Shown here: piece by piece, positions 4,782 through 62,803 of the stretch | How positions within the stretch are numbered: the stretch's first letter is position 1 | Layout of the letters: each line of letters opens with the position of its first letter | Origin: Candidatus Dormiibacterota bacterium | Lineage (GTDB): Bacteria; Vulcanimicrobiota; Vulcanimicrobiia; Vulcanimicrobiales; Vulcanimicrobiaceae | Reading direction: 5' to 3' | DNA: 64,000 bases | Assembly (NCBI GenBank): GCA_035532835.1 | Contig: DATKQG010000038.1 | Coordinates: forward strand, 1-64,000 | Translations under genes and position numbers: made by a program | The notes under the pieces: generated by a model | Told to the model about the DNA's origin: nothing | Database searches by the model: none | The model's input: only the letters and a program-made list of their open reading frames with translations

Positions 4782-4787
4782 AAGAAA

Positions 4788-7233: not shown

Positions 7234-7250
7234 CAGTGCGGTTCCTCTTT

Positions 7251-14354: not shown

Positions 14355-14355
14355 G

Positions 14356-14398
14356 CGCGAACATGCTATACTAACAGCACGCGAACATACGTTCGTGC
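14356..14398 (+). promoter_or_regulatory. Promoter with flanking direct repeats for the four-gene operon
   Basis: An extended -10 box (TGCTATACT, hexamer 14367-14372) lies between two exact copies of CGCGAACAT (14356-14364 and 14380-14388). The second copy also belongs to a dyad, CGAAC-ATAC-GTTCG. This layout suggests a repressor or activator covering the start site. A ribosome site GAGGAG (14403-14408) and ATG 14415 follow. Confidence 0.5.
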
Positions 14399-14414
14399 AG
14401 TCGAGGAGCACTTT

Positions 14415-15071: not shown

Positions 15072-15083
15072 CCGAATCCAAGC

Positions 15084-15638
15084 GTGACCGTTACACAGTC
15101 CACCTTAACGTTACTCAGCATCGGAATGGGTGCGATTGTTGCCTTCATGCTGCTTATCTTGACGCAGGCTAAGAAGGTTTTGGATAGCGACAAAGACTAC
15201 GCTGAAAAACTTGGAGTGGTTGAGAGTAAGAACTTGAACGCCGCGATGGTTCGTCTTCAATGGATCGGCAGAGACCTTAGTGACCCGCAATCCAACTATG
15301 CCTCCCATACGTTGGATATTGAAGCGTTCGCATACGACAAGACTCGGTATGTGATGCGATGTTTTAGCCGCGTTCGAACCTGCCGCGCCGCTTTTGTTTA
15401 CGCAAGGCTGTTCTGCGAGATTGCCAAATGGACTTCAATGCTGGGCGTGGTAATGGTCCTTGTTACTGCGGCAGCGCTGATACGAGATTGGGAGCGCGCT
15501 TTGGTGCCCATTGCCATGGCTGGCGCCGTCGTCGTTAGCGTAGCGATTCTGTCGTTCGCCCTGGCCGAAGGATGTTTGCAAGCCGTGCGACAGCTACATA
15601 CGAGGAGCTTGGGTGCCGATGCAACACTACCTTCCTGA
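15084..15638 (+). CDS. Predicted membrane protein of the four-gene operon
   Basis: The 184-residue product has an N-terminal transmembrane helix (LLSIGMGAIVAFMLLILT) and two C-terminal ones (LGVVMVLVTAAALI and IAMAGAVVVSVAILSFALA), with a charged middle of about 85 residues. No known family is recognised. Start is GTG 15084; the 3' end overlaps the nuclease gene by 26 nt, so the two are probably co-translated. In a defence setting, a small membrane subunit could be the effector or the anchor; this is inference. Confidence 0.6.
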   Translation: MTVTQSTLTLLSIGMGAIVAFMLLILTQAKKVLDSDKDYAEKLGVVESKNLNAAMVRLQWIGRDLSDPQSNYASHTLDIEAFAYDKTRYVMRCFSRVRTCRAAFVYARLFCEIAKWTSMLGVVMVLVTAAALIRDWERALVPIAMAGAVVVSVAILSFALAEGCLQAVRQLHTRSLGADATLPS

Positions 15639-16026
15639 AGTCTTTCTTCAACGGGCGCTTGCCGCGCATTTGCACATGCAGGGCTATCAGGTTCGCGAGG
15701 AAGTTTTGTTTGGAAACTCACGCTTTGACGTCGTGGCGTCTAAGGGCAATAGGATTCTTGGCTTCGAAGTTAAGCTTAGTTCTTGGAAGAGAGCAATGAA
15801 GCAAACTAAGATATATCGCCTGTGCTGTGACGAGGTCTATCTAGTAATCCCCTCAGTCAAGCTCACTGATCCAATTAAGAATCGCTGCGAGGCCGAAGGT
15901 ATTGGGCTCATAACGATAGGACCACCTCCAGAATGGCCCTCCGCGCAAATTATCGCGGCTCCCGAATCCACGATGCGTAACGCGCTACATCACGCTAGTA
16001 TCCAAAGAATTGCGGCATTTCGGTGA
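15613..16026 (+). CDS. PD-(D/E)XK nuclease-like protein of the four-gene operon
   Basis: This 137-residue protein shows the core of the restriction-endonuclease fold. Helix 1 holds YLPEVFLQRAL (Glu9); then SRFDVVASKG (Asp39) and ILGFEVKL (Glu52-x-Lys54) are followed by WKRAMKQ with Gln64, as in many endonuclease-like families. The remaining strands (EVYLVIPSV, IGLITIG) complete a minimal fold. GTG 15613 is 5 nt after GAGGAG. It overlaps the upstream membrane gene by 26 nt and the downstream gene by 4 nt. A DNA- or RNA-cutting role is expected from the active-site set; the target is unknown. Confidence 0.75.
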   Translation: MPMQHYLPEVFLQRALAAHLHMQGYQVREEVLFGNSRFDVVASKGNRILGFEVKLSSWKRAMKQTKIYRLCCDEVYLVIPSVKLTDPIKNRCEAEGIGLITIGPPPEWPSAQIIAAPESTMRNALHHASIQRIAAFR

Positions 16027-17285
16027 GTGCTGAGTTCACGCATTTTTTGCGGATCGGGATTCACAGCGAGGCTGAGATATTCCAGAAGGCGCGGCCGCTC
16101 TACGATGCGCTAATTTTCAACGCCAACCTTGTGGAGGCGACGCCGGGCGCATGTGCAGCCCTGGCCTATCGGCTTGGCAAGCCGTTCTTGATTGATCCCT
16201 TTACCCATGCGTTCAGCCTTAACCCAAAATATCTTATGAGTAAGAGCAAGGGCAAGACTCAGCAAGTCCGGGTCAAACGATCATTTGCAGGTTTGGCTGG
16301 ACGCTACTTCTCGAGCGCACCGTTCTTGGGTGAGAGAGCTCTAGCCGAGGCTGACGTTTCAGTAGATGAGTTCACGCTGCGTGTGTTGGACTATCAAAAA
16401 ACAATTCTCACTGGTCCTGGTGAGGAGCTTGTCAATATGGCCAATGCAGATCCGGCTGTGTTCGTGCCAAAGTGGCTTCTGGCACCGTATTTTCCGTTGC
16501 GAAAATCAATGAGCTGGCTCGAGATAAACCTCAAGTGTTTGGAATCAGCTCTAAAATCCGATGCGCAATGCGCCGGTGTGATTGCTGTTGAGCTTAGCGC
16601 ATTGAGAAATGATGCTTGGAAGGTCGTCGCCGATCGCTACTGCGCCCTGAAGCCCAAGACGCTGTTCCTGTGGATAGAGTCTTTTGATGAGGACCAAGCT
16701 GAAGAAGCCGACCTCAAGCTTTACTGTGATCTCGTCCGTTACCTGAGTGACCAAGGCGTGGCAGTAGTAAATCTATTTGGCGGCTTTTTCTCATGCCTTG
16801 CTCAATGCATCGGTCTCACAGGCTTTGCGCATGGGCTGGTCTACGGCGAGAACAAGTCATTTACACCGGTCGTGGGTGGTGGTCAGCCGCCACCGCGGTA
16901 CTATATGAAGCCGGCGCATGTCAGTATGAACGTTCGCGGAGCTGAGTTGGTATTAGGTGGGCTTTCGGCATCTGCTTACCTTGCAAACGTATGCGATTGC
17001 GTAATCTGCTCCGGCCTATTTGATGATGAGCAGGACGTTACGCGTTTCGCACAGTTTGCAGAGGCAAGCGATCAGGGAAAGTTTATGCCGCGTGCGTACG
17101 CGCTATGTCGCTATCATTTTCTGTTTGCGAGACACGACGAAATAAGCAAGATGCAGTCGTTGACGCCAGGGGAACGGATCGAGAGCCTTGTTAAGAACAT
17201 CGAATTCTTGCAGGGAATCGACGCCGAAGAGTCCGTCGAACATCTCTTAACGTGGATTAAGGTCATTAAAACGGTTTGTTCATAG
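16023..17285 (+). CDS. Predicted alpha/beta-barrel protein, last gene of four-gene operon
   Basis: This 420-residue protein starts at GTG 16023, overlapping the nuclease stop (GTGA). Alternating strands and helices suggest a TIM-barrel: FLRIGIHS, ALIFNANLV, KPFLIDPFTHAFSL, PKWLLAPYF, CAGVIAVELSAL, KTLFLWIESFDED, VAVVNLFGGFFS, GFAHGLVYGE, CDCVICSGLFDD. The overall plan reminds me of tRNA-guanine-transglycosylase-like barrels such as the DNA-modifying DpdA, but the catalytic Asp pattern and zinc site are not clear, so I do not name it. Coupling to a nuclease suggests that it modifies, recognises or supplies the nuclease target. Confidence 0.55.
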   Translation: MSAEFTHFLRIGIHSEAEIFQKARPLYDALIFNANLVEATPGACAALAYRLGKPFLIDPFTHAFSLNPKYLMSKSKGKTQQVRVKRSFAGLAGRYFSSAPFLGERALAEADVSVDEFTLRVLDYQKTILTGPGEELVNMANADPAVFVPKWLLAPYFPLRKSMSWLEINLKCLESALKSDAQCAGVIAVELSALRNDAWKVVADRYCALKPKTLFLWIESFDEDQAEEADLKLYCDLVRYLSDQGVAVVNLFGGFFSCLAQCIGLTGFAHGLVYGENKSFTPVVGGGQPPPRYYMKPAHVSMNVRGAELVLGGLSASAYLANVCDCVICSGLFDDEQDVTRFAQFAEASDQGKFMPRAYALCRYHFLFARHDEISKMQSLTPGERIESLVKNIEFLQGIDAEESVEHLLTWIKVIKTVCS

Positions 17286-17556: not shown

Positions 17557-17626
17557 TTGACCTGAGGTGGCAAAGTTGCTCAAGTTGAAACTGTGAATCC
17601 CGGGCCTTTAGCCCAAGGAGATTCAC

Positions 17627-17920
17627 GTGAAGAAAAGTCGCTTCACCGAGGCGCAGATCGTAGCCGTCCTCAAAGAACTTGACGCGGGCGTTCCCGCAGC
17701 AGAGCTTGCGCGACAAAACGGCATTCATGCAAACACCATCCGGCTTTGGCGAGATCGGTACGCCGGCATGGAAACGAGCGACCTGACTCGGCTCAAGCAG
17801 CTCGAAGAAGAGAGCGCAAAGAAAGATCGGATCATCGCCCGACTCACGCTCGAAGTCGACGCCGTGCGAGACCTGATCTCAAAAAACGGATGGGGCCCTC
17901 GCAGCGGAAAGAAACCGTGA
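17627..17920 (+). CDS. IS3 transposase OrfA (helix-turn-helix)
   Basis: This 97-residue protein begins KKSRFTEAQIVAVLKELDAG and carries the HTH (PAAELARQNGIHANTIRLWRD), followed by a leucine-rich coiled coil (LTRLKQLEEESAKKDRIIAR) for multimerisation. It binds the IS ends. A slippery heptamer A-AAA-AAC at 17881-17887, in the OrfA frame, should allow -1 frameshifting into OrfB to make the full transposase. Confidence 0.92.
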   Translation: MKKSRFTEAQIVAVLKELDAGVPAAELARQNGIHANTIRLWRDRYAGMETSDLTRLKQLEEESAKKDRIIARLTLEVDAVRDLISKNGWGPRSGKKP

Positions 17921-18735
17921 GGGCGTTGGAAGAGCGCGGTCTTTCGAAAGTGCGTGCTTGTGCAATCGTTGGGCAATGCCGACGAACGTTGTACTATCCG
18001 CGGAAACCGAAAGACGATACGGCGATCGCACAGCCGATCAACGATCTTGCGCACGAGCGCCCGCGGTGGGGATGGCGACGTCTGATCATCATGCTCCGTC
18101 GTCGAGGCATCCGCGTCGGGGAGCATCGTTTTCGACGTATCTACCGCGAGCTTGGCCTGCAAGTACGGCCTCGGCGTAAGCGCAAGGTGAACTACGTTCG
18201 AGGCAATAGCATCGCGCCGGTCAGCCGACCAAACGAGCGTTGGTCGATTGATTTCATGCACGACCGAATCGGCAACCATCGGAACATCCGTTCGATGAAC
18301 ATCGTTGATGACTTCACGCGGGAATGCCTCGCGTTGGAGATTGGGTATTCGTTCGGCAGCCACGACGTAATCCGAAAGCTTGAGGAAATCGCGTTCGAGC
18401 GCGGCTTCCCGGAAACACTTCGGTTCGACAACGGATCCGAGTTCACGAGCCATGCCATGCTCCGCTGGGGTTCCGAGCGAGATATACATCTGCATTTCAT
18501 CGAGCCCGGCAAGCCGACGCAAAATGCTAACATCGAATCGCTTAACGGGAAGATTCGCGATGAACTCTTCAATATGCATCAATTCACGACGATCTTCGAA
18601 GCCCGGCGAAGGGCCGCAGATTGGCAACGAGACTACAACGACGTTCGACCGCACTCGGCTCTTGGCTACCGAACACCAAGGGAGTTTGCGGAAGAGTTCA
18701 AAATCAACCAACTCTCACAGTTATCAGCTGCGTAA
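17890..18735 (+). CDS. IS3 transposase OrfB (integrase catalytic domain)
   Basis: The frame continues from the -1 slip site at 17881-17887; ATG 17890 is the first internal start. HTH_21-like residues (RPRWGWRRLIIMLRRRGIRV) are followed by the rve integrase core: NERWSIDFMHD (first Asp), LRFDNGSEFTS (second Asp) and NANIESLNGKIRDE (catalytic Glu). It ends YNDVRPHSALGYRTPREFA. No stop or frameshift interrupts it, so the element appears functional. Confidence 0.93.
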   Translation: MGPSQRKETVRALEERGLSKVRACAIVGQCRRTLYYPRKPKDDTAIAQPINDLAHERPRWGWRRLIIMLRRRGIRVGEHRFRRIYRELGLQVRPRRKRKVNYVRGNSIAPVSRPNERWSIDFMHDRIGNHRNIRSMNIVDDFTRECLALEIGYSFGSHDVIRKLEEIAFERGFPETLRFDNGSEFTSHAMLRWGSERDIHLHFIEPGKPTQNANIESLNGKIRDELFNMHQFTTIFEARRRAADWQRDYNDVRPHSALGYRTPREFAEEFKINQLSQLSAA

Positions 18736-18752
18736 GATGCCACCTCAGGTCA

Positions 18753-18791
18753 AAATAAAAACAGGTCCGACAACATTTCCGTGTCGGACCT
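18753..18791 (-). terminator. Rho-independent terminator of tRNA-fMet
   Basis: Arms CAGGTCCGACA (18761-18771) and TGTCGGACCTG (18781-18791) form a perfect 11-bp stem. On the minus strand it is followed by TTTTTATTTT, which runs into the end of the IS3 element. Confidence 0.85.
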
Positions 18792-39560: not shown

Positions 39561-41732
39561 CTACCCGGATGTGATCATGCTTTGGCCGACCGCCGATTGA
39601 TTGCCCTGTCCTAAATAGTAACCCGAATAGTCGATGTGGGTCGGTGCGACGCGGTTGAGCACGAAGCCCAGGATATTGCGCACCCCGACCTGTTCGAAAC
39701 GCTTGAGCGCTTCTTTGGCTTTTCGTAGATCCGTCGCGCCGGAAGAGACCACGAAAATGGTGCCGTCCGTGCGCAGGCTTACAACTGCCGGGTCGAGCGT
39801 CGCCGTGGTCGCGGCACTATCGAAAATCACGCAGCGATATCTTTCGAGGGCGCGCTCCATTAACGCATCGAAGCGGCCGGACTCCAGTAATTTCAAGGGG
39901 TTGGGCGCGGTCGTACCGCTCGTGATCACGTCGAGTCCGGGATAGCGAGTCTGCCGGATGACATCGCTCAGATCTTTCGTTCCGGCAAGGAAGTCCGACA
40001 GGCCGACATCGTTTTTGAGCCCCAGCATCCGATGGATCGAGGGCCGGCGCATGTCTGAGTCGACCAACAAGATGTAGGGGTCGAACTCTGCCATCGCGAT
40101 GGCGGTATTCAATGCAATCGTAGACTTGCCGTCGCCCTGAGTCGGGCTGGTGATGGATAACGAACGTACGGGATGGTCCAGCGAATACCGTACCGACATG
40201 AGAAGTTGCCAAAAGGATTCGATCGTGAGGGCTTTTACCCACGGCTGAACGAGTGCTCCGTCCTTGAGCTGAATCAGGGGCACCGATGCCAAGGGCGCGA
40301 GCGCGAGTTCTTGCTCGACGTCTTCCTGGTCTCGGGCTTTGCGATCGAAGAAGTCCATCACATATGCGGTCGTAATCGCAAGGATCAATCCAACCAGAAT
40401 CGCCACCAATGTATTGAGGAGTAGATTTGGCCGCACGACGGCTCCCGCTGCCGTTGCGGGTTGCGTTACCGTGACGTCGCTGAGTGCCGTCGATTTCGCG
40501 ACGGAGGCGTTGTCGTATTTGGACTGCAGAGCGGAGTATACGGTTTCGGCGGATTTTTGCGCGCGCTCGAGGTCCGCCAGCTGTGCCGCTTCTTTCGGTA
40601 GCTTGGCGAGCGAAGGATGCATCGCCACGCGCTGGCTATGCAGTGTGCTAATCTGCGAGCGAGCCGAAGCAATTTGTGCCCGCAATTGCGCCGCAAGCTG
40701 TTCCAACTGCTGGTACACCGGATTGGGAACGGTATTGCTGGACGCGACGATCGTCGACGGCGTCACCGCGATCTGACGTCGAAGTTCGGCCCGCTGGTTT
40801 TCGAGCGCCGTCACGGCCGGATACTTCTCGGTGTACTGGCGGCGCGCCGTGTCCAACTGCACGTCCACTTGCGCCAACTGAGTATCGAGCTGGGCGCGTA
40901 CCGGATTAGGATCGATCGACGTCTGTCCGTTAATGTTTGCCGGCGTCACGTTCATCTGCGACTGAACGGTCGCCAACTGCGCCGCCGCCTGCCGTTGGTC
41001 CACTTGTTCTTGGCCGACCCTAGCATCGATCGCGGAGAGCGCGGAGATCAGGCCCTGCGTTTGTGTATTGATGTCGGCGATATTATGTGAGGTCTCGTAG
41101 GCGGCGAGCGCAGTCTGGGCGTCCGTCAGCCGCTGCTGCGCCGCCGGTAACTCTTTGGAGAGGAAACCGATAGCGCTAACCGCTTGTGCCGCGATCAAAT
41201 CGCGCTGTCGTGAAATGACGACCGTTCCGAACTCGTTCGCGATCTTCGCCGACGTTACCGGATCCGACCACGTCACGGCCAGAGCCAGGATCGCCGTATT
41301 GGTAACGGGTTGGATGCTGACGTTCTTGAGCAACGCGCCGGGCGATGTGTGGAGGCCGAGATTCTGAATGACCTGCTGCGCTACCGGCGTCTCTTGAAAG
41401 AGTTCGGCATACGTTTCGGCCGATTGATTGCTGTTCGCGAGCAGCAAGGCATTTAATATGGGGAGCTCGCTATCGGGCGCCGCGTTTCCATTCGACGTTC
41501 CGCTCGTCCCAGCGATGAGCTTCACCACGGTCGTGTACGACTTCGGCGCGAGCAGCGACGCGATCACGACGAGGAGGACGAATCCGGCGAAGACGGCGAT
41601 CATGACCTTGAACCGGCGTTCGAAGAGCCGTAGGAGGGAGCGGCCGTCGCGCGTATCTGCGGATTGCGTCGGGATTGTGGTTGTGCCGGGGAGTGCGGCA
41701 ACGGCGTTGCCGTTGGTCTGCAAACGGTCCAC
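39561..41732 (-). CDS. wzc: Wzc-like polysaccharide co-polymerase / tyrosine autokinase
   Basis: This 723-residue inner-membrane protein has a TM helix at about 43-64 (IAVFAGFVLLVVIASLLA), a long periplasmic coiled-coil part, and a second TM (LLLNTLVAILVGLILAITTAY). The cytoplasmic BY-kinase follows: SPTQGDGKST (Walker A), LLVDSDMRRPSIH (Walker A'), VIFDSAAT (Walker B, unusual for the common D-x-PP). The C-terminus has only a small Tyr cluster (DYSGYYL). It controls chain length and export together with Wza. The start is GTG with GAAGGAG. Confidence 0.92.
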   Translation of the reverse strand: MDRLQTNGNAVAALPGTTTIPTQSADTRDGRSLLRLFERRFKVMIAVFAGFVLLVVIASLLAPKSYTTVVKLIAGTSGTSNGNAAPDSELPILNALLLANSNQSAETYAELFQETPVAQQVIQNLGLHTSPGALLKNVSIQPVTNTAILALAVTWSDPVTSAKIANEFGTVVISRQRDLIAAQAVSAIGFLSKELPAAQQRLTDAQTALAAYETSHNIADINTQTQGLISALSAIDARVGQEQVDQRQAAAQLATVQSQMNVTPANINGQTSIDPNPVRAQLDTQLAQVDVQLDTARRQYTEKYPAVTALENQRAELRRQIAVTPSTIVASSNTVPNPVYQQLEQLAAQLRAQIASARSQISTLHSQRVAMHPSLAKLPKEAAQLADLERAQKSAETVYSALQSKYDNASVAKSTALSDVTVTQPATAAGAVVRPNLLLNTLVAILVGLILAITTAYVMDFFDRKARDQEDVEQELALAPLASVPLIQLKDGALVQPWVKALTIESFWQLLMSVRYSLDHPVRSLSITSPTQGDGKSTIALNTAIAMAEFDPYILLVDSDMRRPSIHRMLGLKNDVGLSDFLAGTKDLSDVIRQTRYPGLDVITSGTTAPNPLKLLESGRFDALMERALERYRCVIFDSAATTATLDPAVVSLRTDGTIFVVSSGATDLRKAKEALKRFEQVGVRNILGFVLNRVAPTHIDYSGYYLGQGNQSAVGQSMITSG

Positions 41733-41743
41733 GTGGTGCTCCT

Positions 41744-42625
41744 TCAGAGGATGCGGCTAAGCAGGTAGAGGAATGCGGTCAGCCCACCGCTATGATTGTG
41801 CTGCGAGGCCTGAGGGACGTAGATGACGTCGCCTTTTTGAAGCGCTACGTCATAGTTGGTTTGCCCTTGCTCGAGTGCCCGATAGAGATTAATTTTGTAG
41901 GTCGCCGATTTACCGTCCGCCAGCGTTCTTACGAGCCGAATATTATTGAGATCGGCTTGAGCGCCGGCGCTGTTACCGGCCTTCGCAATGGCCATCGAGA
42001 GACGGTCGCCTTGGTTGAGCACGATCTGCCCGGGATGGTCGACGGCTCCCACGACCTCTACGTCAAACTGCATCGGGCCCGGAACGTAGACGACGGTGCC
42101 TTCCTGCACCGGCAAGTCGAGCGCGGTGTCGCCGTCGTGCAGCAATTTCTGCAGAGACACGGTTTGGATTTGCTGGGCGCCGTCAGAGACGCGCGCGTTC
42201 GGCAGCAGTCCGTCGACTTCGCCCAGTCCGCCGGCGGCCGCAATCGCGTCGGTCAAGCGAGCGCCGGAACGAAGCGTGTATTTGCCCGGCGTCTTCACGT
42301 TGCCGAGGACCAAAACGTTGGGCTGGCCCTGTTGCGCGATCATCACCGTGACGACCGGGTGCTTGACGTACTGAGTCAGGCGGTGCTTCAGGGCGTTCTC
42401 CACTCCTACGGGAGTCAGTCCCGCAACCGGCACTTGCCCGATCAGCGGATACTCGATCGAACCATCGGGCAGGACCGTGACGGTCTGCGTGAGCGTTGAA
42501 TCGCCATAGACCTGAACGGCGAGCTGGTCGCCGGCGTGTACCTGATATTGCGATGTCTGTGCACGTAGCGGCGTTCCCCACGCGAGGAGGCACAACACGG
42601 TGAGAAGGGCGAGCAATTGACGCAT
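41744..42625 (-). CDS. wza: Wza-like polysaccharide export protein
   Basis: A 293-residue protein with signal peptide (LLALLTVLCLLAWGTPLRA), the PES domain (YQVHAGDQLAVQVYGDSTLTQTVTVLPDG), two SLBB domains (VKTPGKYTLRSGARLTDAIAAAGG and VDHPGQIVLNQGDRLSMAIAKAGN) and a C-terminal hydrophobic helix (LTAFLYLLSRIL) that could insert in the outer membrane. No lipobox Cys follows the signal. It forms the export channel and is placed 11 nt before wzc. The ribosome site is AGGAGA. Confidence 0.92.
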   Translation of the reverse strand: MRQLLALLTVLCLLAWGTPLRAQTSQYQVHAGDQLAVQVYGDSTLTQTVTVLPDGSIEYPLIGQVPVAGLTPVGVENALKHRLTQYVKHPVVTVMIAQQGQPNVLVLGNVKTPGKYTLRSGARLTDAIAAAGGLGEVDGLLPNARVSDGAQQIQTVSLQKLLHDGDTALDLPVQEGTVVYVPGPMQFDVEVVGAVDHPGQIVLNQGDRLSMAIAKAGNSAGAQADLNNIRLVRTLADGKSATYKINLYRALEQGQTNYDVALQKGDVIYVPQASQHNHSGGLTAFLYLLSRIL

Positions 42626-46372: not shown

Positions 46373-47854
46373 CTAGCGGGCCGAAGCGAAGAAAACTTCC
46401 GTCGCGGTTTTGAAGATGAGCGAGAGGTCGAGAAGCAGCGACCAGTTTTCTAGATAGAACAGATCGTAGCTGAGCTTTTCGCCGATATCCGATTCTTGTA
46501 GTGTGCGTGCCATGTGCAGTTGGCTCCAGCCGGTGATCCCGGGCCGCACGAAATGCCGTTCGTCGTAACGCGGAAGCGTTCGGCGAAAAACCTCGACAAA
46601 ATAGGGTCGCTCGGGCCGCGGCCCGACGACCGACATCTCGCCGCGGAGCACGTTGATAAATTGCGGAAGTTCGTCCAGGCTGGTGCGGCGCAGGAAGCGG
46701 CCGAGCCGCGTTACGCGAGTATCGCCCGGGCGCACCCACACCGGCCCGCTTTCGACCTCGGCATTCGCGCTCATCGAACGAAACTTGAGCATCTCAAACG
46801 GCTTTCCGAATTGGCCCACGCGGGTCTGAGCATACAAGACGGGGCCTTTATCGACGAGCCTAATCGCCAGAGCGATGATACCCATGGGGATCGCCGCTAC
46901 CGCGAGGGCGGTCGTGGCGACCGCGATATCCAGCAGGCGCTTGAGAAAGCCGGCGAGCGGCGTGCAGGCTCGCAGGGAGCGTGGCACGAGCAGCGCCTGT
47001 TGACCTTGTAGGCGCAGGTCCAGAGAATAAGCGTGGGAGACGACGCGCGGAAGCGCAAACGCGATATCCATGCTGTAGCGTTGTGCGACGCTTACCAGCA
47101 CCGGGATGAAATCCGGAGGGAGAAGCTCCGTGAGCAGCAATCGCTGGCACCCGTGCGATACCGCACGTAAAAACCAGTCGGCGCTCGTGACCGTCGCTTC
47201 GTTTGCGACGTTTTTCGAAAACGTCTCTTCTACGGGATCGATGAATATTTGAAACACGCGGCAGGATGCCGGGAAGTTGAGCGAGTGGATCGCGGCTTCG
47301 ACCCTATCCTTGCACCCGACGACCGCAACGCATTCCGTCCGCGGCATGAGAACCGTGTTCCGCAGTGCATGCAAAGCGGCGCGGACGCTACCGACACCAA
47401 CCACGGCGAGCCCCAACGAAAGAAGGAGCATCAAGCGCGATGTGGATACCGCCGGCCAAAGAGTAAACAAGGCGAACTGCGGGACGACGCCGATGCAGAG
47501 AGCCGCCGCGGAGTAGTACACTTCGTCCTTGGTCGAAAGCGCAAACGTGCATTTGTAGAGGCCCAGGCGCTGAAACGTAATGAGCCAAATAGCGATGAAG
47601 ATGATTGCCGTATGTGAAAAAACGTAATACGTGTCGGCCACGGATTCCGTGCCCTGGACGATGGAGGCGGCAAGGTAGGTCGAGATGAGGAACATGCAGA
47701 TGTCGGCGCCGACGAGCACGGCGATCGAACTGCGTGAGAAACTCGCTGGCTTCTGTTGCGGTTTTGCGGTACTGATCTGGCGTTCTAGGAGTTCGCGGGC
47801 CGGGCTCGATACCTGAGGATCGGGCGACCCCTTGGGAATAACCATTGCTGCCAT
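46373..47854 (-). CDS. Initiating sugar transferase (polyprenyl glycosylphosphotransferase)
   Basis: This 493-residue membrane enzyme of the WcaJ/WbaP type starts the lipid-linked unit by moving a sugar phosphate to undecaprenyl phosphate. It has four to five N-terminal TM helices, a CoA-binding-like domain (CVAVVGCKDRVEAAI), a last TM (IAVATTALAVAAIPMGIIALAI), then the catalytic core: KGPVLYAQTRVGQFGKPFEMLKFRSM, RLGRFLRRTSLDELPQFINVLRGEMSVVGPRPE and RPGITGWSQL. This is the conserved family signature. Confidence 0.95.
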   Translation of the reverse strand: MAAMVIPKGSPDPQVSSPARELLERQISTAKPQQKPASFSRSSIAVLVGADICMFLISTYLAASIVQGTESVADTYYVFSHTAIIFIAIWLITFQRLGLYKCTFALSTKDEVYYSAAALCIGVVPQFALFTLWPAVSTSRLMLLLSLGLAVVGVGSVRAALHALRNTVLMPRTECVAVVGCKDRVEAAIHSLNFPASCRVFQIFIDPVEETFSKNVANEATVTSADWFLRAVSHGCQRLLLTELLPPDFIPVLVSVAQRYSMDIAFALPRVVSHAYSLDLRLQGQQALLVPRSLRACTPLAGFLKRLLDIAVATTALAVAAIPMGIIALAIRLVDKGPVLYAQTRVGQFGKPFEMLKFRSMSANAEVESGPVWVRPGDTRVTRLGRFLRRTSLDELPQFINVLRGEMSVVGPRPERPYFVEVFRRTLPRYDERHFVRPGITGWSQLHMARTLQESDIGEKLSYDLFYLENWSLLLDLSLIFKTATEVFFASAR

Positions 47855-54596: not shown

Positions 54597-57005
54597 TTAC
54601 CACGGCGCTTGCACCGTCGCCGTTCCGCTCGGGCCCACCTGGAAGTAAAACTTCTGCGGGCTGGTGCTTGCGTTTCTTACCGTAAAGCGTACTCCTAACA
54701 GATTGTTGGTAGCGGTCGACGGTTGTCCCGCTCCGGGAATACTGTAGGTGTAGGTTGCGGCTTTGAGCACCTGCGACGCGCTTTGAGAACCCACCACCGA
54801 AAGGACGGACGAACCCGTGGAACTGACGCGCAGTACTTCCACTTTGGAGAGGGTCAGCGCAGTGTTCGCTCCGTCAATCGCGTAGTGAATCGTATAGGTG
54901 CCCGATGGCCAGGACGTTTTGGATAGGACGCCCGCAGCGGTGAGCCAGCCGTGGGTGATCGTCGCACCCGCCGGGACGGTGATTCCTACGCCTCCGGAGA
55001 TCCCGCTTGGGCTACTGCTCATCATCAGGCCCGACGGATTGCCGGCGGCTAATGTGAACACGCTGCTCGTATACGATGTGCCCTGTGAGATCGGCTTAAA
55101 TAGATTCGCCGAGGAGCTTGTCGCAGGCGTAGGTGACGCTCCCGGTGTAGTGCTTGCCGTTACGGCAGGCGTAGGTGTAGCCGTAGGCGCCGTACTGGAT
55201 TTTCCGACGAAGATCGCCGCTTGATCCGGACCGAGCTTGACGCTTGAAACCGTCTGCAAGGACGTCGTGCCGCCTTGCTCCAGGGAGCCGCCATTGATCA
55301 CCAAACGGCTGTATCCCGCCGGTACCGCGATCGTTGCGGTCGATGCCGACTGGCTCGGATTGACGATCACCCAACCATTGGCAAAGTGCCGCTCGTAGGC
55401 ACCGTGGGCCGCGACCCACGCGGCGCTGATGTTGCTGAAGGTCTGCGAGGGGCTGCCCAGGGGCGCTGCAAGTTCGGGGAATGTTTGCCCCATGCCCAGC
55501 GACGTTTCGAGATCGTAGTAGGTGTTAGGACTGCACACCAAGAGGTACGAGCCGAAGATGTACGACCGGACTCCCGCGTCGGTCGACCCGTCGGAGAGAA
55601 CGCGCGCTTTTAGATGATCGTTCTGCGCGATGTTATAGACGTTATTCATCGTACTGATCCAGTACGACGTCGGCGCATAGTGCCAGCTGCTAACGTCGTA
55701 GGCGAATTCTTCCACTTCCACACCATTGACGTGCGGCGCCAAAGCGGCAGCGACGGAGGGGTTGGAAAAACCGTTTGCAGAGATCTGAATGGTGCTCGGA
55801 ACGGCCGCACGTAAAGCGACGTATTGTGCCGCGACACCGGAGAGATACTGCTGGTCCGAATAGCCGTACGGAAACGCGTCGGGGCGGGTCTGGACGAAAT
55901 ACTCGTCGGTATCGTCGAGGAGGGCGCCTTTATATTTACCGGATTGGGCTACTGAAGTGATGTAGGAAGCCAGCAGCTTCTGCCATGCCGGCGAGGCGGG
56001 ATTCATCAGATAGTTATTTGCATAGCGGCCGAAGTGCAGACGGTTGTTAGGGGATGTTACATAATAGGATTGGCCGGCGGCCGGTAAGGACACGCCGCTC
56101 GTAGTATCCACCACTCGATAGGCGATGCCGCCGTAGAATCCGCTAGGAATGCTCACGGTAACCGCCCCGTGGTAAACGTTCGATGAGCCGAGCGACATCG
56201 ACGTCGATACGGGCTTCGTTGTCGTGGTCGGCGCGACTTCGGTCTGCAAGACCATGTGCGCGCCGCTCGAGCTGCCATGCACCGAAACGCTCAACGTCAC
56301 CGTGTGTCCCGGAGCGGGCTGAGCTGAGAGCGAGTAGCTCGGTGAATCGAGGTTCAGCGTGCCTGGCGCCGAGGCTACTGCCGATTCCGCCCACGAATAG
56401 GGGGTCGACGCGCCGCCGATGATGCTTTGAACGCTAAAGAAGTACTTCTGCCCAAGCGCCAGGCCGGTTACCTTATACGATGTTTGCCCGGCTGCGACGG
56501 TCGCGACATGAGAGAGCGATGTTGCGGATGTGCCCCTATATATCGCATATCCACCGATCGTCACGCCGCGTGCATCGGGCTTCCAATTCAGCGTCACAGC
56601 GGAAGCGGACGGCACGAGCGTTAGCGTAGCCGGATCCGACGTATGTTGAAAAGCATCCTCATGGAGATTCACGGTGCTCCATGCGGGCTCGGTGCCGCCA
56701 TAATTTGGAAGCTCGCGGATGGACGATATGTAGAAATCGGTGTAATCGCCCGCATCCTCAAGCGTAGGAACCTCGGAAGCTGTCTGCGTCGTCACCCATT
56801 TAAAGCCGGTCGTATATTTGTCCATCGGCATCGGAGCGTATCCGGCGGCGAGTGCCGGGGGCAGGGCCGACGTCGACACGGCTTGTGTGGTTGTCGAGCG
56901 TAAATCCGATGGTATGACCGAAGTCGGCTGGGCCGCGTTTTGGGCGCACCCGGAACAGACTACGAGTAGGCATGCGCCAACGTTGATGAGGGTTTGTCGA
57001 ATCAT
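54597..57005 (-). CDS. Exported FnIII-containing GHL15-like putative glycoside hydrolase
   Basis: This 802-residue protein has a lipoprotein-like start (GACLLVVCSGC). A fibronectin type III module (ATLTLVPSASAVTLNWKPDA to YKVTGLALGQKYFFSVQSI) and an Ig-like part follow. The barrel has LHFGRYANNYLMNPASPAWQ, YKGALLDDTDEYF (acidic cluster), IQISANGFSN, NGVEVEEFAYD and KARVLSDGSTDAGVRSY. A C-terminal beta domain and PTPT linker end the protein. The acidic residues fit glycosidase catalysis. The family call is from overall resemblance to GHL15 and is not certain. Confidence 0.65.
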   Translation of the reverse strand: MIRQTLINVGACLLVVCSGCAQNAAQPTSVIPSDLRSTTTQAVSTSALPPALAAGYAPMPMDKYTTGFKWVTTQTASEVPTLEDAGDYTDFYISSIRELPNYGGTEPAWSTVNLHEDAFQHTSDPATLTLVPSASAVTLNWKPDARGVTIGGYAIYRGTSATSLSHVATVAAGQTSYKVTGLALGQKYFFSVQSIIGGASTPYSWAESAVASAPGTLNLDSPSYSLSAQPAPGHTVTLSVSVHGSSSGAHMVLQTEVAPTTTTKPVSTSMSLGSSNVYHGAVTVSIPSGFYGGIAYRVVDTTSGVSLPAAGQSYYVTSPNNRLHFGRYANNYLMNPASPAWQKLLASYITSVAQSGKYKGALLDDTDEYFVQTRPDAFPYGYSDQQYLSGVAAQYVALRAAVPSTIQISANGFSNPSVAAALAPHVNGVEVEEFAYDVSSWHYAPTSYWISTMNNVYNIAQNDHLKARVLSDGSTDAGVRSYIFGSYLLVCSPNTYYDLETSLGMGQTFPELAAPLGSPSQTFSNISAAWVAAHGAYERHFANGWVIVNPSQSASTATIAVPAGYSRLVINGGSLEQGGTTSLQTVSSVKLGPDQAAIFVGKSSTAPTATPTPAVTASTTPGASPTPATSSSANLFKPISQGTSYTSSVFTLAAGNPSGLMMSSSPSGISGGVGITVPAGATITHGWLTAAGVLSKTSWPSGTYTIHYAIDGANTALTLSKVEVLRVSSTGSSVLSVVGSQSASQVLKAATYTYSIPGAGQPSTATNNLLGVRFTVRNASTSPQKFYFQVGPSGTATVQAPW

Positions 57006-57381
57006 TGGTGAGTCTCCCGAAAAAAATTCAGTAAGTGATGGTCAGCAAATGATCGTGACCGACAAAGGTGTTGGGCACCAATCGCCTCGCTGAGACATGG
57101 CGCTGAAAGGTCGTAGTGATTCGTCGATTGTTCATGCGATCTCCGAATGCGACGAACGCTCGAACGCGCTGAGCGGGTGGACGATGGGTGAGATAAGCAA
57201 CTGCGCCGGGCCCTAGGCCGCGTGTCGATGATGTCGCCAACAATACTGGTCTCAGTACTAGGGGAACGATCGCGACGCGAGTGCTTGAGGTGGGTGGTTG
57301 TTGACAGAATGAGGGATACCTCGTAGATCAGAAAGGAAGTTCTAATTTCAAACGAGTGATGTTCGAGCAAGCGCTAAATGC
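57006..57381. other. Intergenic stretch before the hydrolase gene
   Basis: It holds the 5' region of the minus-strand hydrolase, with a GGGAG ribosome site near 57012-57016. A 122-codon frame (57002-57370 minus) overlaps that site and lacks protein-like character. No riboswitch or tRNA was recognised. Confidence 0.4.
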
Positions 57382-57816
57382 TTATTGGCTCAGGAAAACC
57401 GCCGCTTGGTCGGATGCTAGCGTGATGCTCGTTACCGGCACCTTGCGCATGGTGCCTCCGGCCTGGATCGATCCACCGGGAACCGTAACTTCTTGATACG
57501 TTTTGTGCAATGCGATCGCGGTCGTTTGCGACTGGCTCGGATTCACGAAAATTTTGCCGTTGGAGAACGACCGCTCGTATGCCGAGTCGGTTTGCGACCA
57601 CGTAGCGGCGACTTGCGAAACGCTTTGCAGCGGCGACCCGAGGTTGACTTGTTCGTCGCGATATAGCGACCCCTCGGGCCTGCCTCGTAGTCGTACGACA
57701 TGTTCTGATTGCGACGAGGTAGTACGTCGCCAAACTGTAGAGGCGCACGTTGGCATCGGTCTGCTGCCCCGAAACGTACAGTCGCGCCTTCTTATTATAG
57801 TTCAGGATCGCTCGAT
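57382..57816 (-). pseudogene. Decayed third copy of the GHL15-like hydrolase (C-terminal part)
   Basis: The end reads NLGSPLQSVSQVAATWSQTDSAYERSFSNG... and DQAAVFLSQ, closely following the intact neighbour (PLGSPSQTFSNISAAW..., DQAAIFVG). Upstream, matching pieces continue in other frames: KARLYVSGQQTDANVRLYSLATYYLV in one frame, NQNMSYDYEA in a second, and then the final frame. At least two frameshifts are therefore present, and homology stops at about 57816, where an IS3 remnant begins. The 5' two thirds of the gene are gone. Confidence 0.8.
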
Positions 57817-57882
57817 TATCGGACGCCGAGGGAGTTCGCGGCGCTTTTCGAACTCAATCAACTCTCACAGCCATCCGCGGCT
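57817..57882 (+). mobile_element. IS3-family transposase remnant (3' end of orfB)
   Basis: The plus strand encodes YRTPREFAALFELNQLSQPSAA, which parallels the end of the intact OrfB at 17890-18735 (YRTPREFAEEFKINQLSQLSAA). Only about 22 codons remain. It abuts the decayed hydrolase, so an IS-linked deletion probably removed the hydrolase 5' part. Confidence 0.8.
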
Positions 57883-57899
57883 TGGAAAACCTCTACACG

Positions 57900-59081
57900 T
57901 CAGTTTGGTGCGTTGCTATTTTGTGGCGATATTACATCAAAGTCTTTAATTACAATCGTATTTAGATTTTGATTTACTGTTGCATTTATGTAAGTGCTGA
58001 TACTACCGTGTTGGTCATTAGAGGCATCTAGAACGTTACAGCATCCGGTATCGAACAGGTATGCCCCATACTGCTTCAGTGCTGTTACGATAATTTTAGC
58101 TGCGGGGGTAAATCCAGCATCATTAAAAGATGCTTTAAGCCTAATATGGCTACCGTATGGCATCGGTGTATCGCCCGATGGTCCGCTATATGGCATGCAG
58201 CCGGCACCCACGGTTGCGCTTGGCAGCACAGAGATAGCAGGGTTAAATGGCATCTGCTTTTCACAGCCGATCGCGCTCCAACCTAATGCGTGATTGATAA
58301 CTCCCGCTGCTAGTTCTTCAGGCTTAATCGTCATCGCAGTTAATGGGATCCCACTAGCATCAGCCGTTGATCCTCCTTGGAGCGTTGGCGAAAACGGTAG
58401 TCTAGTGTTCCATCTTCCAGAGTTATAGACACTAAAAGACGATCCATTATTAACGGCATAGCCGGCTTCCCATAAAGTACAGGAAGGAATGTTTCCGTTT
58501 TCCGCGGTCGTCATTACTTGGTAATGACCATCAGCACCAGTACTGCTTTCGATCTGAGTCATAGCCCCACTGGTTTGTAATCCCCAAGGCATTGACCAGG
58601 GTGAATACTGGGCTTGATGACGTGAACTAGAGATGGGCAAAAGGGGAGTGGAGGTCGAGACGATATTAACATATGGTGCAACAGGTGCCCAGATATTAAA
58701 TCCTGCATTACTTACATCTGCGTAAGCTTTAATGTAAGCATTTGAATTACTATCCATTGGGGCAGAAGCTACGTTGGTATGAAACCATCCACCACTACTG
58801 CCTCCTGCTGTACCTGGGAACATTGGACAGCCTGGACTTGCCGCTACCGTTTGACTTGGCGGTGTCGGGGTGGGCGTCGGATTAACGCCTGTCGGGGTGG
58901 GCGCCGGCTTAACGCCTGTCGGGGTGGGCGTCGGATTAACGCCTGTGGTGGTGCCGCCTCCGGTCCCCACGCCGGATCCGCCCATGTTGGGGAGCGATGG
59001 CACGGAGGACGCCCCCGAACCACCGCCGCCACCGCAAGCGCTGAGCATAAGAATGGCGAGTGCCGCCGACCAGGTTTTCAT
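57900..59081 (-). CDS. Putative lipoprotein with PTPT linker and AT-rich body
   Basis: This 393-residue protein has a lipobox (ILMLSAC), a Gly/Ser stretch, and three 9-residue repeats (GVNPTPTPT type). A body of about 300 residues follows with IKAYADVSNAGFNIWAPVAPYVNI, AVNNGSSFSVYNSGRWNTRLPF and AAGVINHALGWSAIGCEKQ, and a Cys pair in DTGCCNVLDA. No family recognised. Codons for the body are clearly richer in A/T than those of the N-terminal 75 residues and of all neighbours. The gene looks like a resident lipoprotein start joined to a foreign domain. Confidence 0.65.
   Translation of the reverse strand: MKTWSAALAILMLSACGGGGGSGASSVPSLPNMGGSGVGTGGGTTTGVNPTPTPTGVKPAPTPTGVNPTPTPTPPSQTVAASPGCPMFPGTAGGSSGGWFHTNVASAPMDSNSNAYIKAYADVSNAGFNIWAPVAPYVNIVSTSTPLLPISSSRHQAQYSPWSMPWGLQTSGAMTQIESSTGADGHYQVMTTAENGNIPSCTLWEAGYAVNNGSSFSVYNSGRWNTRLPFSPTLQGGSTADASGIPLTAMTIKPEELAAGVINHALGWSAIGCEKQMPFNPAISVLPSATVGAGCMPYSGPSGDTPMPYGSHIRLKASFNDAGFTPAAKIIVTALKQYGAYLFDTGCCNVLDASNDQHGSISTYINATVNQNLNTIVIKDFDVISPQNSNAPN
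58866..58946. repeat. 27-bp tandem repeat, three copies
   Basis: Units start at 58866, 58893 and 58920; the middle one differs at two bases. They encode the GV(N/K)P(T/A)PTPT linker and can expand or contract in frame. Confidence 0.93.
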
Positions 59082-59161: not shown

Positions 59162-60364
59162 TTAAATTCTTACCCGCTTTCCGGCCAGGCGAGCGACTGC
59201 AGTCGTCTTCTTTAGCGTGAGGGCAACGTGCTCGGCCTGGGCCGTACTCATGTCGGGAAATAGCGGTAGCGAGAGCAGCTGCGGGAAGGCACGCTCGGTA
59301 ACCGGCACGTCGGCGCCGGCGAACGCCGCATAAGCGCTGAACCGGTGCGTGGGGATATAATGAACGCTCGTGCCGATGCCGCGCGCGCGCAGATATTCGA
59401 TGGCGTCATCCCGCGTGTAGCCGGTCCTTTCCGGATCGATCCGCACGGCGTAGAAGCACCAACTGTGACGGTCTGCGGGACCCAGCGCGGGGGAAACGGG
59501 TTCAATCCCGTCGACCCGCTCGAAGAGCTGGTTGTAGAGGCGCGCGAGCCGATCGCGCCGTGCCTGGAATTCTTCTAGGCGCCCGAGCTGCGAGAGGACC
59601 AGCGCCGCCAGAGGATCCGCCAGGTTGGCTTTGTGCCCGATCGTTTCGACGTCGTATTGCCAGGGCCGAGTCGTCTGGTGGCGATTCCACGCATCTCGCG
59701 ATAGGCCGTGCAACGCGTGGCTGCGCACCCGTTGCGCGACGTCCTCTCGCTGCGTTACGAATATCCCGCCCTCCGCCGAGGTGACATTTTTGGTCGCATA
59801 AAAGCTGTAGGCCGCGCCATCCGAATGTACGCCGGCCCAGCTACCGCGATCTTGCATCCCGACGCTGAGAGCTGCGTCTTCCAACATGGCGATGCCGTGG
59901 CGTTTTGCGAGGGCGCATATCTCCGCGATGCCGATCGGTGCCCCGGCATACTGCATCACGACCAGCGCTTTGGTCGAAGCAGAAATATGCGGTTCGATCG
60001 TGGCGGCGCTGCAGGAAAGCGTCTCCGGCGAAACATCACAGAAAACCGGAGTCGCTCCAAGCTGAATCACGCAATTCGCCGCGGCAACGAACGAGAGGGA
60101 CGGTAGAATCACCTCGTCACCGGGGCCGACGCCGAGGGCGATAAGGCCCAGGAGTATTCCCGCGGTGCAGCTGTTAACGGCGATCGCGTGCTCAACGCCG
60201 GCCATTTCGGCAAAGGTGCTCTCGAGGAGCGCTACCCGCGACCCGCTCGTGAGCCAGCCGTTACGCAGGCACTCGGCAACGCGCGCAATATCGCTCTCGC
60301 TAATCGAGGGCCGGAAGAAGGGTATCGCCGTCGGCGAATCTTTAGGGGCCGTGCCGGTGAACAT
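59162..60364 (-). CDS. DegT/DnrJ/EryC1/StrS aminotransferase
   Basis: This 400-residue PLP enzyme of the sugar aminotransferase family makes amino-deoxy sugars from nucleotide keto-sugars. It shows WLTSGSRVALLE, GPGDEVILPSLSFVAAANCV, VVMQYAGAPIGIAEI, AMLEDAALSVG, and SFYATKNVTSAEGGIF with the PLP Lys. Late residues YNQLFERVDGIEPVSP and GTSVHYIPTHRFSAY are typical. The start lies 23 bp inside the end of the polymerase gene. Confidence 0.93.
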   Translation of the reverse strand: MFTGTAPKDSPTAIPFFRPSISESDIARVAECLRNGWLTSGSRVALLESTFAEMAGVEHAIAVNSCTAGILLGLIALGVGPGDEVILPSLSFVAAANCVIQLGATPVFCDVSPETLSCSAATIEPHISASTKALVVMQYAGAPIGIAEICALAKRHGIAMLEDAALSVGMQDRGSWAGVHSDGAAYSFYATKNVTSAEGGIFVTQREDVAQRVRSHALHGLSRDAWNRHQTTRPWQYDVETIGHKANLADPLAALVLSQLGRLEEFQARRDRLARLYNQLFERVDGIEPVSPALGPADRHSWCFYAVRIDPERTGYTRDDAIEYLRARGIGTSVHYIPTHRFSAYAAFAGADVPVTERAFPQLLSLPLFPDMSTAQAEHVALTLKKTTAVARLAGKRVRI

Positions 60365-61715
60365 GGCGCCTCCCCGCGGAACGTACGAGCGCCGCCGCGA
60401 TAAAGGCCATCCAGAGGTATTTGTACCAGAGGACGTCCACCGTCAGCGACACGATAAACATGGCAATGATCGCCCCTTGAACCGCAATCCGAAAATCGAA
60501 CAACGGGTGGTCCTTCCCAATGGATCGGACGATGAGAAATGCGGACACAAACCCGGCCAACACTAAGATGAGGCCGATGATTCCGAATTCCACGCTGCTG
60601 TAAACGATGAGATCGTGAGCGTTAAAATGCCAAGGGTTCGGATGATCCTGATAGACCGAAAGATAAGAGGCGTCGTAGGCGTTTTGGTAATTGCCCACTC
60701 CCCAGCCCGAAAGCCAGCGTTTTGTGAACGCGTGATAGCCGACTCGCCACAATGAAAGGCGCCCGGCACCCTCGGAGGACCCGGCCACCGCGAAGCGTTG
60801 AACGATACTACTCCCCGAGGCGACGCCGACGAGGGCGGCCAGCGTTGCGGTCACGACCGTTTGTAGCCGGTGGCGCCCGTAGAATAGGAAGAACGCGAAC
60901 ATGGCTGCCACGCCCACAAACGCGCCTCGCGATGCGGCAAAATACATTGCCGCAAGGATGGTCACGATCACCACGCAGTATCCGGCCTTTAGAAGAAGAT
61001 GTTTTGCCGACCAAAACATCGTGAGAACGAGCGCTAGCGGGAGCAGCAGCCCATTTGCGAAGTGGTTGGGATCGATGGAGCGGTTTTCGCCGACCCGGAC
61101 AAAGAGTCGCGCCAGATCACCCGCCTGAAGACCCACGGCATGGGTATGATAGTAATAAGCTCCGTAAATCGCGGCTATGAGCCCGCCGCCCACAACCGCA
61201 GCGAAAACGAACCAGAGGTCCTGTTGCGATATCTCTACGACGGACATCACCCCAAAAAGACCGATCAGTAACACATAGGTTACGAGCATCGGTATTGCGT
61301 CGGTCACGTTCAGGGCCCAGAAGCTCGTCGCTGCCGCCCACCCCAAGAAGGCGATCCATACGAAAAGGGCGTGAGGCGGCGCGATAAAACGGCGCTCGCG
61401 CACCGTCCACAAAAAGACGCAAATCGCCGAGACGCCGGCAATGAGCTTGGTAAGCGTTCCAAAGGTGGAAAAGTCCAAAAGATTGTCAAACGGTAAGAGC
61501 AGCGCGAACAAACCAAACGGGAAGATCATCGGACGATACGCCGCGAGATAACAGCAGAAGGGGAAGACTGCGAGGGCGACAGCGGCCGCATACGAGTGTT
61601 TCGAGCCGCCCAGGAGTATCCAGCACAGAACCAATGCGAAGCCCGCTACCCCCAACCCAACGAGGGTCGCGGGTTTGTCGGGGAGCGCCCATTGGCGACG
61701 AACTCCGAGCATCAT
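60342..61715 (-). CDS. O-antigen ligase/polymerase (Wzy)-like membrane protein
   Basis: A 457-residue protein with about 11-12 transmembrane helices and a large extracytoplasmic loop. The pattern FVGVAAMFAFFLFYGRHRL, RLSLWRVGYHAFTKRWLSGWGVGNYQNAY and NPWHFNAHDLIVYSSVEFGIIGLILVLAGFV contains the W-x-G-x-G and H-N signature of the Wzy_C family. It should polymerise or ligate the flipped repeat units. It overlaps WecB by 4 nt and DegT by 23 nt. Confidence 0.88.
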   Translation of the reverse strand: MMLGVRRQWALPDKPATLVGLGVAGFALVLCWILLGGSKHSYAAAVALAVFPFCCYLAAYRPMIFPFGLFALLLPFDNLLDFSTFGTLTKLIAGVSAICVFLWTVRERRFIAPPHALFVWIAFLGWAAATSFWALNVTDAIPMLVTYVLLIGLFGVMSVVEISQQDLWFVFAAVVGGGLIAAIYGAYYYHTHAVGLQAGDLARLFVRVGENRSIDPNHFANGLLLPLALVLTMFWSAKHLLLKAGYCVVIVTILAAMYFAASRGAFVGVAAMFAFFLFYGRHRLQTVVTATLAALVGVASGSSIVQRFAVAGSSEGAGRLSLWRVGYHAFTKRWLSGWGVGNYQNAYDASYLSVYQDHPNPWHFNAHDLIVYSSVEFGIIGLILVLAGFVSAFLIVRSIGKDHPLFDFRIAVQGAIIAMFIVSLTVDVLWYKYLWMAFIAAALVRSAGRRHVHRHGP

Positions 61716-62803
61716 ACGAAGAGCTCCTGGGCCGCTCGCGCGCTTGGCCGTCTGCGAAGCACGATGTCGCCGATCTGTTGCGCGGCGTAACCCTGGCCAA
61801 AATAGGGCGCCGGGGGTACGCTAGGCGACGGGCGAAGCGCGGCGGCCCGGATCGCCGCGGGGTCGTCGCCCGCAAGGACGTTCCAGCCGTTAATGAGCGT
61901 TTCGGTCCATTCGGTCGTCTCGCGCAAGGTTACGCACGGCACGGCCAAGGCATGTGCCTCCTTTTGGATTCCGCCCGAATCGGTGAGAATCACTTTGGCA
62001 TCGCGCATGACGGAAAGCATTCCGCGATACGATAGCGGAGCGCACATATGGATCGTACCGTTCGGTATGCCCAAGCCGTAACGCTCGGCGAGGCCTCGGC
62101 TGCGCGGGTGGACGGGAAAGACGACCGGTATTCCAATCGCCCGCAAGCCCTTGACGATGCGAGAAAACCGGGCCTCGTCATCGGTGTTCGAGGCCCGATG
62201 GATCGTTACGACCGCGTACTCTTTGGGCAGGAGCCGTAAGTTGGAAATCACCGTATTGCCGGCCCGTAGCGTTGGAAGCGTCAATCGCAGCAGATCGATC
62301 ATCAGATCGCCGGTGACGTCCGCGCCTTGTATGCCTTCGGATTCGAGTTGCGCTTTGGCTCGCTGATTCGGAGCGAAATGCAACGTTGAAAGATGATCGG
62401 TTACAACGCGATTGATTTCTTCGGGCATCGATCGGTCGAACGATCGGAGCCCGGCCTCGATATGGGCGATCGGAATCTGCAGCTTACTGGCGGCAAGAGC
62501 TCCCGCGAGCGTGCTATTGGTATCGCCGTATACCAGCACCATGTCGGGACGTTCCTGTTGCAGAATCGGCTCGAGCCGTTTGAGCATCTCGCCCGTCTGC
62601 TCCCCGTGCCCGCCGGAGCCGACACCGAGATGATAGTCCGGCTCCGGCATCGCCAACTCATCGAAGAATACCTGTGACATTTGAGCGTCGTAATGCTGCC
62701 CGGTATGAACCGTGATCTCGCGCGCGCGGGTCCGTAGGTGAGCCGACATCACGGCAGCTTTGATGAACTGCGGGCGGGCCCCGATAACCGTCACGACGTT
62801 CAT
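61712..62803 (-). CDS. wecB: UDP-N-acetylglucosamine 2-epimerase (non-hydrolysing)
   Basis: The 363-residue enzyme interconverts UDP-GlcNAc and UDP-ManNAc. It begins VTVIGARPQFIKAAVMSAHLR, has HTGQHYDAQMSQVFFDELAMP, VLVYGDTNSTLAGALAASKL, IAHIEAGLRSFDRSMPEEINR and LTDSGGIQKEAHALAVPCVTLRETTEW, the full WecB/MnaA set. It supplies the amino-sugar donor for the polymer. It overlaps both neighbours by 4 nt. Confidence 0.95.
   Translation of the reverse strand: MNVVTVIGARPQFIKAAVMSAHLRTRAREITVHTGQHYDAQMSQVFFDELAMPEPDYHLGVGSGGHGEQTGEMLKRLEPILQQERPDMVLVYGDTNSTLAGALAASKLQIPIAHIEAGLRSFDRSMPEEINRVVTDHLSTLHFAPNQRAKAQLESEGIQGADVTGDLMIDLLRLTLPTLRAGNTVISNLRLLPKEYAVVTIHRASNTDDEARFSRIVKGLRAIGIPVVFPVHPRSRGLAERYGLGIPNGTIHMCAPLSYRGMLSVMRDAKVILTDSGGIQKEAHALAVPCVTLRETTEWTETLINGWNVLAGDDPAAIRAAALRPSPSVPPAPYFGQGYAAQQIGDIVLRRRPSARAAQELFV

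Follow-up and report, generated by a model that had tools for sequence, protein, structure and literature searches.

The window, by which we mean the whole stretch of 64,000 nucleotides that was analysed, comes from a genome of 2.89 Mb in 120 contigs. Its minus strand carries the gene of a putative lipoprotein, composed of a signal, a GC-rich linker and an AT-rich body. The N-terminus of the protein, MKTWSAALAILMLSAC, is a lipobox-type signal. When its own genome was searched with the lipoprotein, the search returned the locus itself and two weak matches (E 0.03), which involved the signal and linker part only. The gene and its parts are as follows.

57,900-59,081, minus strand: whole lipoprotein gene, one intact ORF of 393 aa with an ATG start
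59,034-59,081, minus strand: lipoprotein signal, residues 1-16, ending in LSAC (sequence and pattern match at Cys16)
58,845-59,033, minus strand: linker, residues 17-79, GC-rich, Gly/Ser and then Thr/Pro (sequence and composition)
58,863-58,953, minus strand: linker repeat, three copies at 27-bp spacing (repeat search)
57,903-58,844, minus strand: AT-rich body, residues 80-393, of an undescribed secreted family (homologue search, composition, tree and conserved residues)

The region from about 36 to 64 kb of the window, in which this gene lies, reads as a Wzy-type exopolysaccharide (EPS) locus. Its main genes are listed below; the flippase and glycosyltransferase genes of the locus were named in the same way as the epimerase and the export genes, from the reading of their sequences only.

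59,162-60,364, minus strand: DegT/DnrJ/EryC1/StrS aminotransferase (Pfam, E 8e-100)
60,342-61,715, minus strand: Wzy_C/O-antigen ligase-type polymerase, the syntenic partner of the lipoprotein gene (Pfam, E 1.9e-14)
61,712-62,803, minus strand: WecB-like UDP-GlcNAc 2-epimerase (named by reading, no family search)
46,373-47,854, minus strand: bacterial sugar transferase, WbaP-like (Pfam Bac_transf, E 4e-64)
39,561-42,625, minus strand: Wzc-like and Wza-like export genes (named by reading, no family search)

The base composition changes abruptly within the lipoprotein gene. Residues 1-79 are encoded with a GC content of 0.675 and a GC3 of 0.696, whereas the values for residues 80-393 are 0.465 and 0.376. 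The genomic background comprised 337,569 bases, namely the 64-kb window and 20 stretches of the same genome, with 857 bases counted twice. Its 942-bp windows have a mean GC of 0.623 (sd 0.035, lowest 0.500), and none of the 3,167 windows that remain when those overlapping the body are left out is as low as the body. Codons for Gly, Pro and Ala are inherently rich in GC, so the third positions were corrected for the amino acid and the break was retested. The corrected synonymous GC3 breaks at codon 72, with the five best positions at codons 70-74 and the sixth at codon 63, and the strength of this break was matched by none of 2,000 permutations. Relative to the genome, the corrected value deviates by -0.07 to the left of codon 72 and by -0.40 to the right of it. 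The body has a z value of -16.2, beyond the background minimum of -9.9 (181 mechanically called ORFs of at least 250 aa), while the first 79 codons, with z = -2.35, are lowish yet ordinary, as 19% of the 181 background ORF starts lie lower. On raw bases, the segment is delimited as follows, with a left edge that is loosely fixed (56,954-57,930) and a right edge at 58,788-58,799.

57,844 or 57,882 (best left edges) to 58,788, no strand assigned: AT-rich segment (raw-base composition)

The earlier note had described a GC-rich N-terminal part with a 27-bp linker repeat joined to an AT-rich body, and had proposed a sliding GC and codon analysis. GC, GC3 and the break at codon 72 bear out this description: the composition is not uniform and steps sharply at about codon 72. 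No comparable break was found in the homologues, 32 of which (out of 36) could be split into an N-terminal part and a body; the split point was not found in L019, L028 and L036, and L037 was not located. In these 32, a few of which have a short N-terminal part and an unsure start codon, the GC3 of the N-terminal part minus that of the body averages -0.055 (sd 0.081, maximum 0.115), as compared to +0.304 here. Assembly error aside, the gene is therefore a mosaic, and because the break is confirmed and is unseen in the 32 homologues, it is best read as the outcome of some kind of import or replacement. The whole gene might instead have been inherited without any transfer, its body alone having drifted towards A/T. 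The native clade and synteny of the gene, described below, agree with such a history, but a sharp synonymous-codon break within a single gene does not, nor do the lack of a similar break in the homologues and the failure of any background window to reach so low a GC content; we regard drift as quite unlikely.

The 3' edge of the lipoprotein gene adjoins two degraded sequences and one intact gene.

57,817-57,881, plus strand: C-terminal scrap of an IS3 transposase, 65 bp (74% identity to a transposase gene end)
57,385-57,672, minus strand: C-terminal remnant of a GHL15-type hydrolase (42% over 97 aa)
54,597-57,005, minus strand: intact neighbour, an fn3 and GHL15-like lipoprotein of 802 aa (ORF and Pfam)

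The IS3 scrap, located just past the stop codon of the lipoprotein gene, shares 74% identity with the terminal part of the IS3 transposase gene at 17.7-18.7 kb. The hydrolase remnant comes next and aligns at 42% to residues 506-602 of the intact 802-aa GHL15-type neighbour; its 5' part, which would face the AT-rich block, is missing. In this neighbour, fn3 scores above the cut-off and GHL15, with 26.5 bits, just below its cut-off of 27. The 802-aa protein has partial matches only, in three of 40 other genomes searched. Both the IS3 remnant and the decayed hydrolase, which had been reported just beyond the 3' end, are thus real by sequence matches. The intact IS3-family element of the window (17,557-18,753) has perfect 16-bp terminal repeats, TTGACCTGAGGTGGCA. 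This repeat is absent from 57.8-57.9 kb even when up to three mismatches are tolerated. As the scrap represents a different IS3 copy (74%) from the intact one, the absence of the terminal repeat does not exclude a role of an insertion sequence in the recombination event, and none is claimed here.

These two edges also bear on the possibility that the contig of another organism was joined to this one at the repetitive linker during metagenome assembly. The genome lies in 120 contigs, the linker contains direct repeats, and the metagenomic nature of the assembly was inferred from the number of contigs and the nature of the relatives. However, such an artefact needs two joins, one that keeps the reading frame and one beside the IS3 scrap, and both flanks are ordinary, which makes an assembly error highly improbable.

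The body belongs to a family that is widespread in the phylum. With an E value of at most 0.01, a search with the body alone found matches in 24 of 60 relatives and in 50 of 149 genomes of the phylum, its own genome being included in both counts. Of 36 homologous ORFs, 25 have a lipobox-type Cys among their first 26 residues and before the body, as detected with a simple pattern. The start codons had been picked with knowledge of this motif, the count has no chance expectation beside it, and it omits three further matches within 26 residues as well as later ones (mostly Cys residues of the body, or ORFs with an unsure start). In a tree of 51 rows, which leaves out L019, L023 and L036, the window body groups with same-family Eremiobacterota copies (support 100/99). 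This group is nested in a 20-row Eremiobacterota clade (100/99) that is separate from the other family members. The end branch of the window body is long (1.11) and drew a warning from the tree program, so that its exact place is unsure. Among the 23 columns that are at least 90% conserved across the 51 rows, 21 are kept by the window body, and the conserved residues that it keeps are D184, H186, E205, H264, R314, Y338 and D344. We interpret it as a live member of the family that has diverged. Five close named relatives (L047-L051), all from Candidatus Eremiobacterota MAGs, share 34-38% identity with it across most of the body, the DTGCC motif and a signal-like start before the body. They differ from the window gene in that the GC content of the gene is near that of its surroundings and the linkers are short. 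The phylum name used here for the window follows from its kinship with these five. The genus mate G001, which is 93% complete, has no body match, so there is no before/after comparison.

The synteny of the gene is that of its clade. The Wzy_C gene lies 1.3 kb from the lipoprotein gene, with one gene between them. Within the clade, 14 of the 19 cellular copies, the window copy included, have a Wzy, Wza or Wzc homologue no more than about 11 kb away; we gave these labels to homologues of the window's genes. The tree and this count omit two contig-end fragments from G038, one with a Wzy homologue next to it. The remaining five copies have no EPS gene nearby, and three of them lie on contigs shorter than 7 kb. 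As a control, 15 locus proteins were searched for over 1.5 kb on each side of 36 homologues; a match to Wzy or Wzc was detected in six of the ten clade loci and in none of the 26 others. With its signal-linker-body plan, its clade position and its Wzy neighbour, the window protein is a member of this Eremiobacterota EPS-locus clade. By its sequence relationships, the body is a home-type domain with a foreign composition rather than one alien to the phylum. In four other loci (L115, L117, L118 and L112), a gene of 273 aa is situated between the lipoprotein and Wzy genes, in the place that the DegT gene occupies in the window.

The family extends to phages. A set of 50,697 phage records contains no match to the window body itself at E 0.01 (tblastn). 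Among the BFVD models, five match with an E value of 0.001 or lower, and one of these is named as a Gordonia phage minor tail protein. When the phage relative L042 served as the query, 53 of the 50,697 records matched at E 0.001, 52 of them from Gordonia phages, and in 11 of the 53 the match spans 80% or more of L042. Among the 40 matches listed, 29 are annotated as minor tail protein, ten as hypothetical protein and one as glycosylhydrolase, and some phages appear twice under two accessions. The Gordonia phage minor tail proteins, reached via L042 and the BFVD models, thus share the domain family with the window protein, but they are tail proteins, not host lipoproteins, and among the matches listed are 26-31% identical to L042. 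In the Gordonia phage Stormageddon (L126), the family member gp18 (3,593-5,509) lies three genes after the major capsid gene; it is annotated as a glycosylhydrolase and is followed by an annotated ADP-ribosyltransferase. The clade itself is represented on an IMG/VR contig of 68 kb (L060), by a member with 36% identity, a signal-like start and a long Thr/Pro linker. It is located downstream of a Baseplate_J gene, from which two genes separate it, and a tape-measure-like protein and another baseplate-like protein are encoded further along. The L060 member is found at 3,659-4,843, and the gene next to it also has a signal-like start.

The search for a low-GC or phage source of the body, which the earlier note had called for, yielded no AT-rich close donor: across relatives, phylum genomes, genome contigs, IMG/VR, phages and plasmids, nothing was both close and AT-rich. 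The genome contigs gave no match to the single window protein and 13 loci, five of them close, to two conserved peptide patterns, a type of scan that under-counts distant members. Three of the IMG/VR scans found nothing. Among 72,556 plasmid records, three matched, all actinobacterial and about 25% identical. The bodies of the 32 homologues range in GC from 0.519 to 0.638, and the low-GC relatives L042 (0.469), L054 (0.502) and L046 (0.508) all fall outside the clade.

The body might have come from an Eremiobacterota phage that carries a same-clade copy, with signal, Thr/Pro linker and body, beside its baseplate genes, as L060 does near its Baseplate_J gene. However, the L060 locus is not AT-rich (GC 0.608), the host of L060 is not known, and no closer phage copy was found in the phage records or the part of IMG/VR searched; a phage source of this kind appears unlikely. 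The earlier note had gone further, proposing that a foreign extracellular domain was imported under a native secretion signal, that is, that an alien domain from a phage or a low-GC bacterium was captured and a new protein created. Its compositional chimera with a breakpoint in the linker stands, and the mobile-element scrap beside the 3' end and the presence of the family in phages would suit such a capture. The alien origin of the domain, in contrast, is largely refuted by homologues of the same architecture throughout the phylum, whose wide occurrence in relatives the note itself had named as a refutation. The body falls within an Eremiobacterota clade found mostly in EPS loci, this setting is conserved, and the phage records hold no match to the body itself. 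Capture of an alien domain is accordingly very unlikely, and the replacement of a body by a homologous one is the better account.

No convincing match to the body was detected in Pfam, NCBIfam, PHROGs or the PDB sequences, and neither Pfam nor NCBIfam assigns a catalytic family, of CAZy type or other, to the window protein. Rows for ribosomal S6 (E 0.12 or worse) and single-member Pfam rows (E 0.09 and 0.22) were set aside as chance, and the NCBIfam entry SslE (E 0.03) covers residues 6-79 only, i.e. the signal and linker. Four of the seven distant members scanned carry CBM60, CBM35 with CBM6, laminin-G/concanavalin-type or chitobiase C-terminal domains, and the other three have no carbohydrate-type module. 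These fusions, together with the phage tail copies, form a pattern that fits a domain that meets polysaccharide. We know of no activity for any member of the body family.

AlphaFold models, each based on an 18-row alignment, were obtained for the window body (pLDDT 77.7, pTM 0.84) and for its relative L056 (pLDDT 87.0, pTM 0.88). In Foldseek searches of the PDB, neither model retrieved anything at E 0.001 or better, and the candidates were given a second look with VIA-align. For the window body there were two rows, in which MltA (115 residues, rmsd 4.7) and a chain of LptBFGC tied at Z 2.4. For L056, the top seven of nine rows were MltA chains from four species (Z 3.3-5.3), aligned nearly over the full length (163-186 residues, rmsd 6.3-7.7), and the other two rows had Z 2.9 and 2.8. 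An MltA-like fold is thus a weak lead, as these Z values are below the level trusted for a shared fold. For profile comparison, an MltA set was assembled from E. coli MltA and homologues from one class (27 of 32 usable, five missed by the motif). Against five family references, hhalign returned probabilities of 0.3% or less, with scores of 1.4, 15.5, 17.1, 16.6 and 17.2, and column-reversed MltA scored 13.7-14.8 against four of the five. There is thus no sequence support for kinship with MltA, even though four of the five runs placed their best local alignment in MltA 279-350. PF03562 was not found in any of 13 genomes (the own genome and 12 relatives), and the window protein has no Pfam match to this MltA family at E 1 or better.

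According to excerpts of the published account, MltA is an enzyme that is anchored in the membrane, has a double-psi barrel and relies on one catalytic Asp, given for the E. coli protein as Asp308 in the text and Asp328 in a figure legend (PMC8562663). The window protein resembles this membrane-bound lytic transglycosylase (LT family 2) as a putative lipoprotein on a polysaccharide layer, and differs in that the profile-profile comparison gives no support and its own model ties with the LptBFGC chain. As far as the excerpts of the respective papers go, PslG (PMC9075953) and AlgL (PMC8829089) are glycan-acting proteins that accompany an EPS locus. Like these, the window gene lies within an EPS synthesis locus and its product is predicted to meet the polymer beyond the inner membrane. 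Unlike them, it has no known glycan-cleaving family and would be a glycan-acting lipoprotein with a Thr/Pro linker.

Given its neighbours, the modules fused to its relatives and the weak fold match, the lipoprotein may act on polysaccharide. On balance, we lean towards the reading that a resident EPS-locus lipoprotein had its body exchanged, at the linker, for an AT-richer homologous one, and that this body probably acts on the polysaccharide of the locus. The native signal and the Thr/Pro linker would tether a folded body of about 300 residues at the cell surface. Recombination would have exchanged this body for a homologous one from a related but unsampled, AT-richer source, with an in-frame fusion of the incoming body at the repetitive linker. 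The opposite end of the replaced segment would be the one that adjoins the IS3 scrap and the truncated hydrolase gene. At the surface, the body might cleave, trim or hold the polysaccharide of the locus. If so, the gene offers a clear within-gene example of the replacement of a surface lipoprotein body in a largely uncultured phylum. A more specific and rather doubtful proposal regards the body as the catalytic domain of a so far undescribed family of polysaccharide-cleaving enzymes with an MltA-like fold, carried by EPS-locus lipoproteins in Eremiobacterota and by tail genes in tailed phages. The window gene would then be a snapshot of body swapping in a pool shared by hosts and phages, with the repeated linker as the joint.

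Apart from the replacement reading, the results bring together an unnamed domain family that is common to EPS loci, CBM-bearing secreted proteins and phage tail genes, and that can be tested as a possible new EPS-degrading or EPS-binding domain. In searches of the open-access PMC literature, none of the titles and abstracts listed concerned the window lipoprotein or its family, and neither the family nor its phage link was found there or in Pfam, PHROGs or NCBIfam.

A second low-GC stretch of the window, at 5,950-17,285, contains six ORFs with a GC content of 0.515-0.548, and its lowest 942-bp window has a GC of 0.50. It is a probable genomic island, and within it the stretch at 10,972-12,225, as read from its sequence, looks like a mutator-type transposase.
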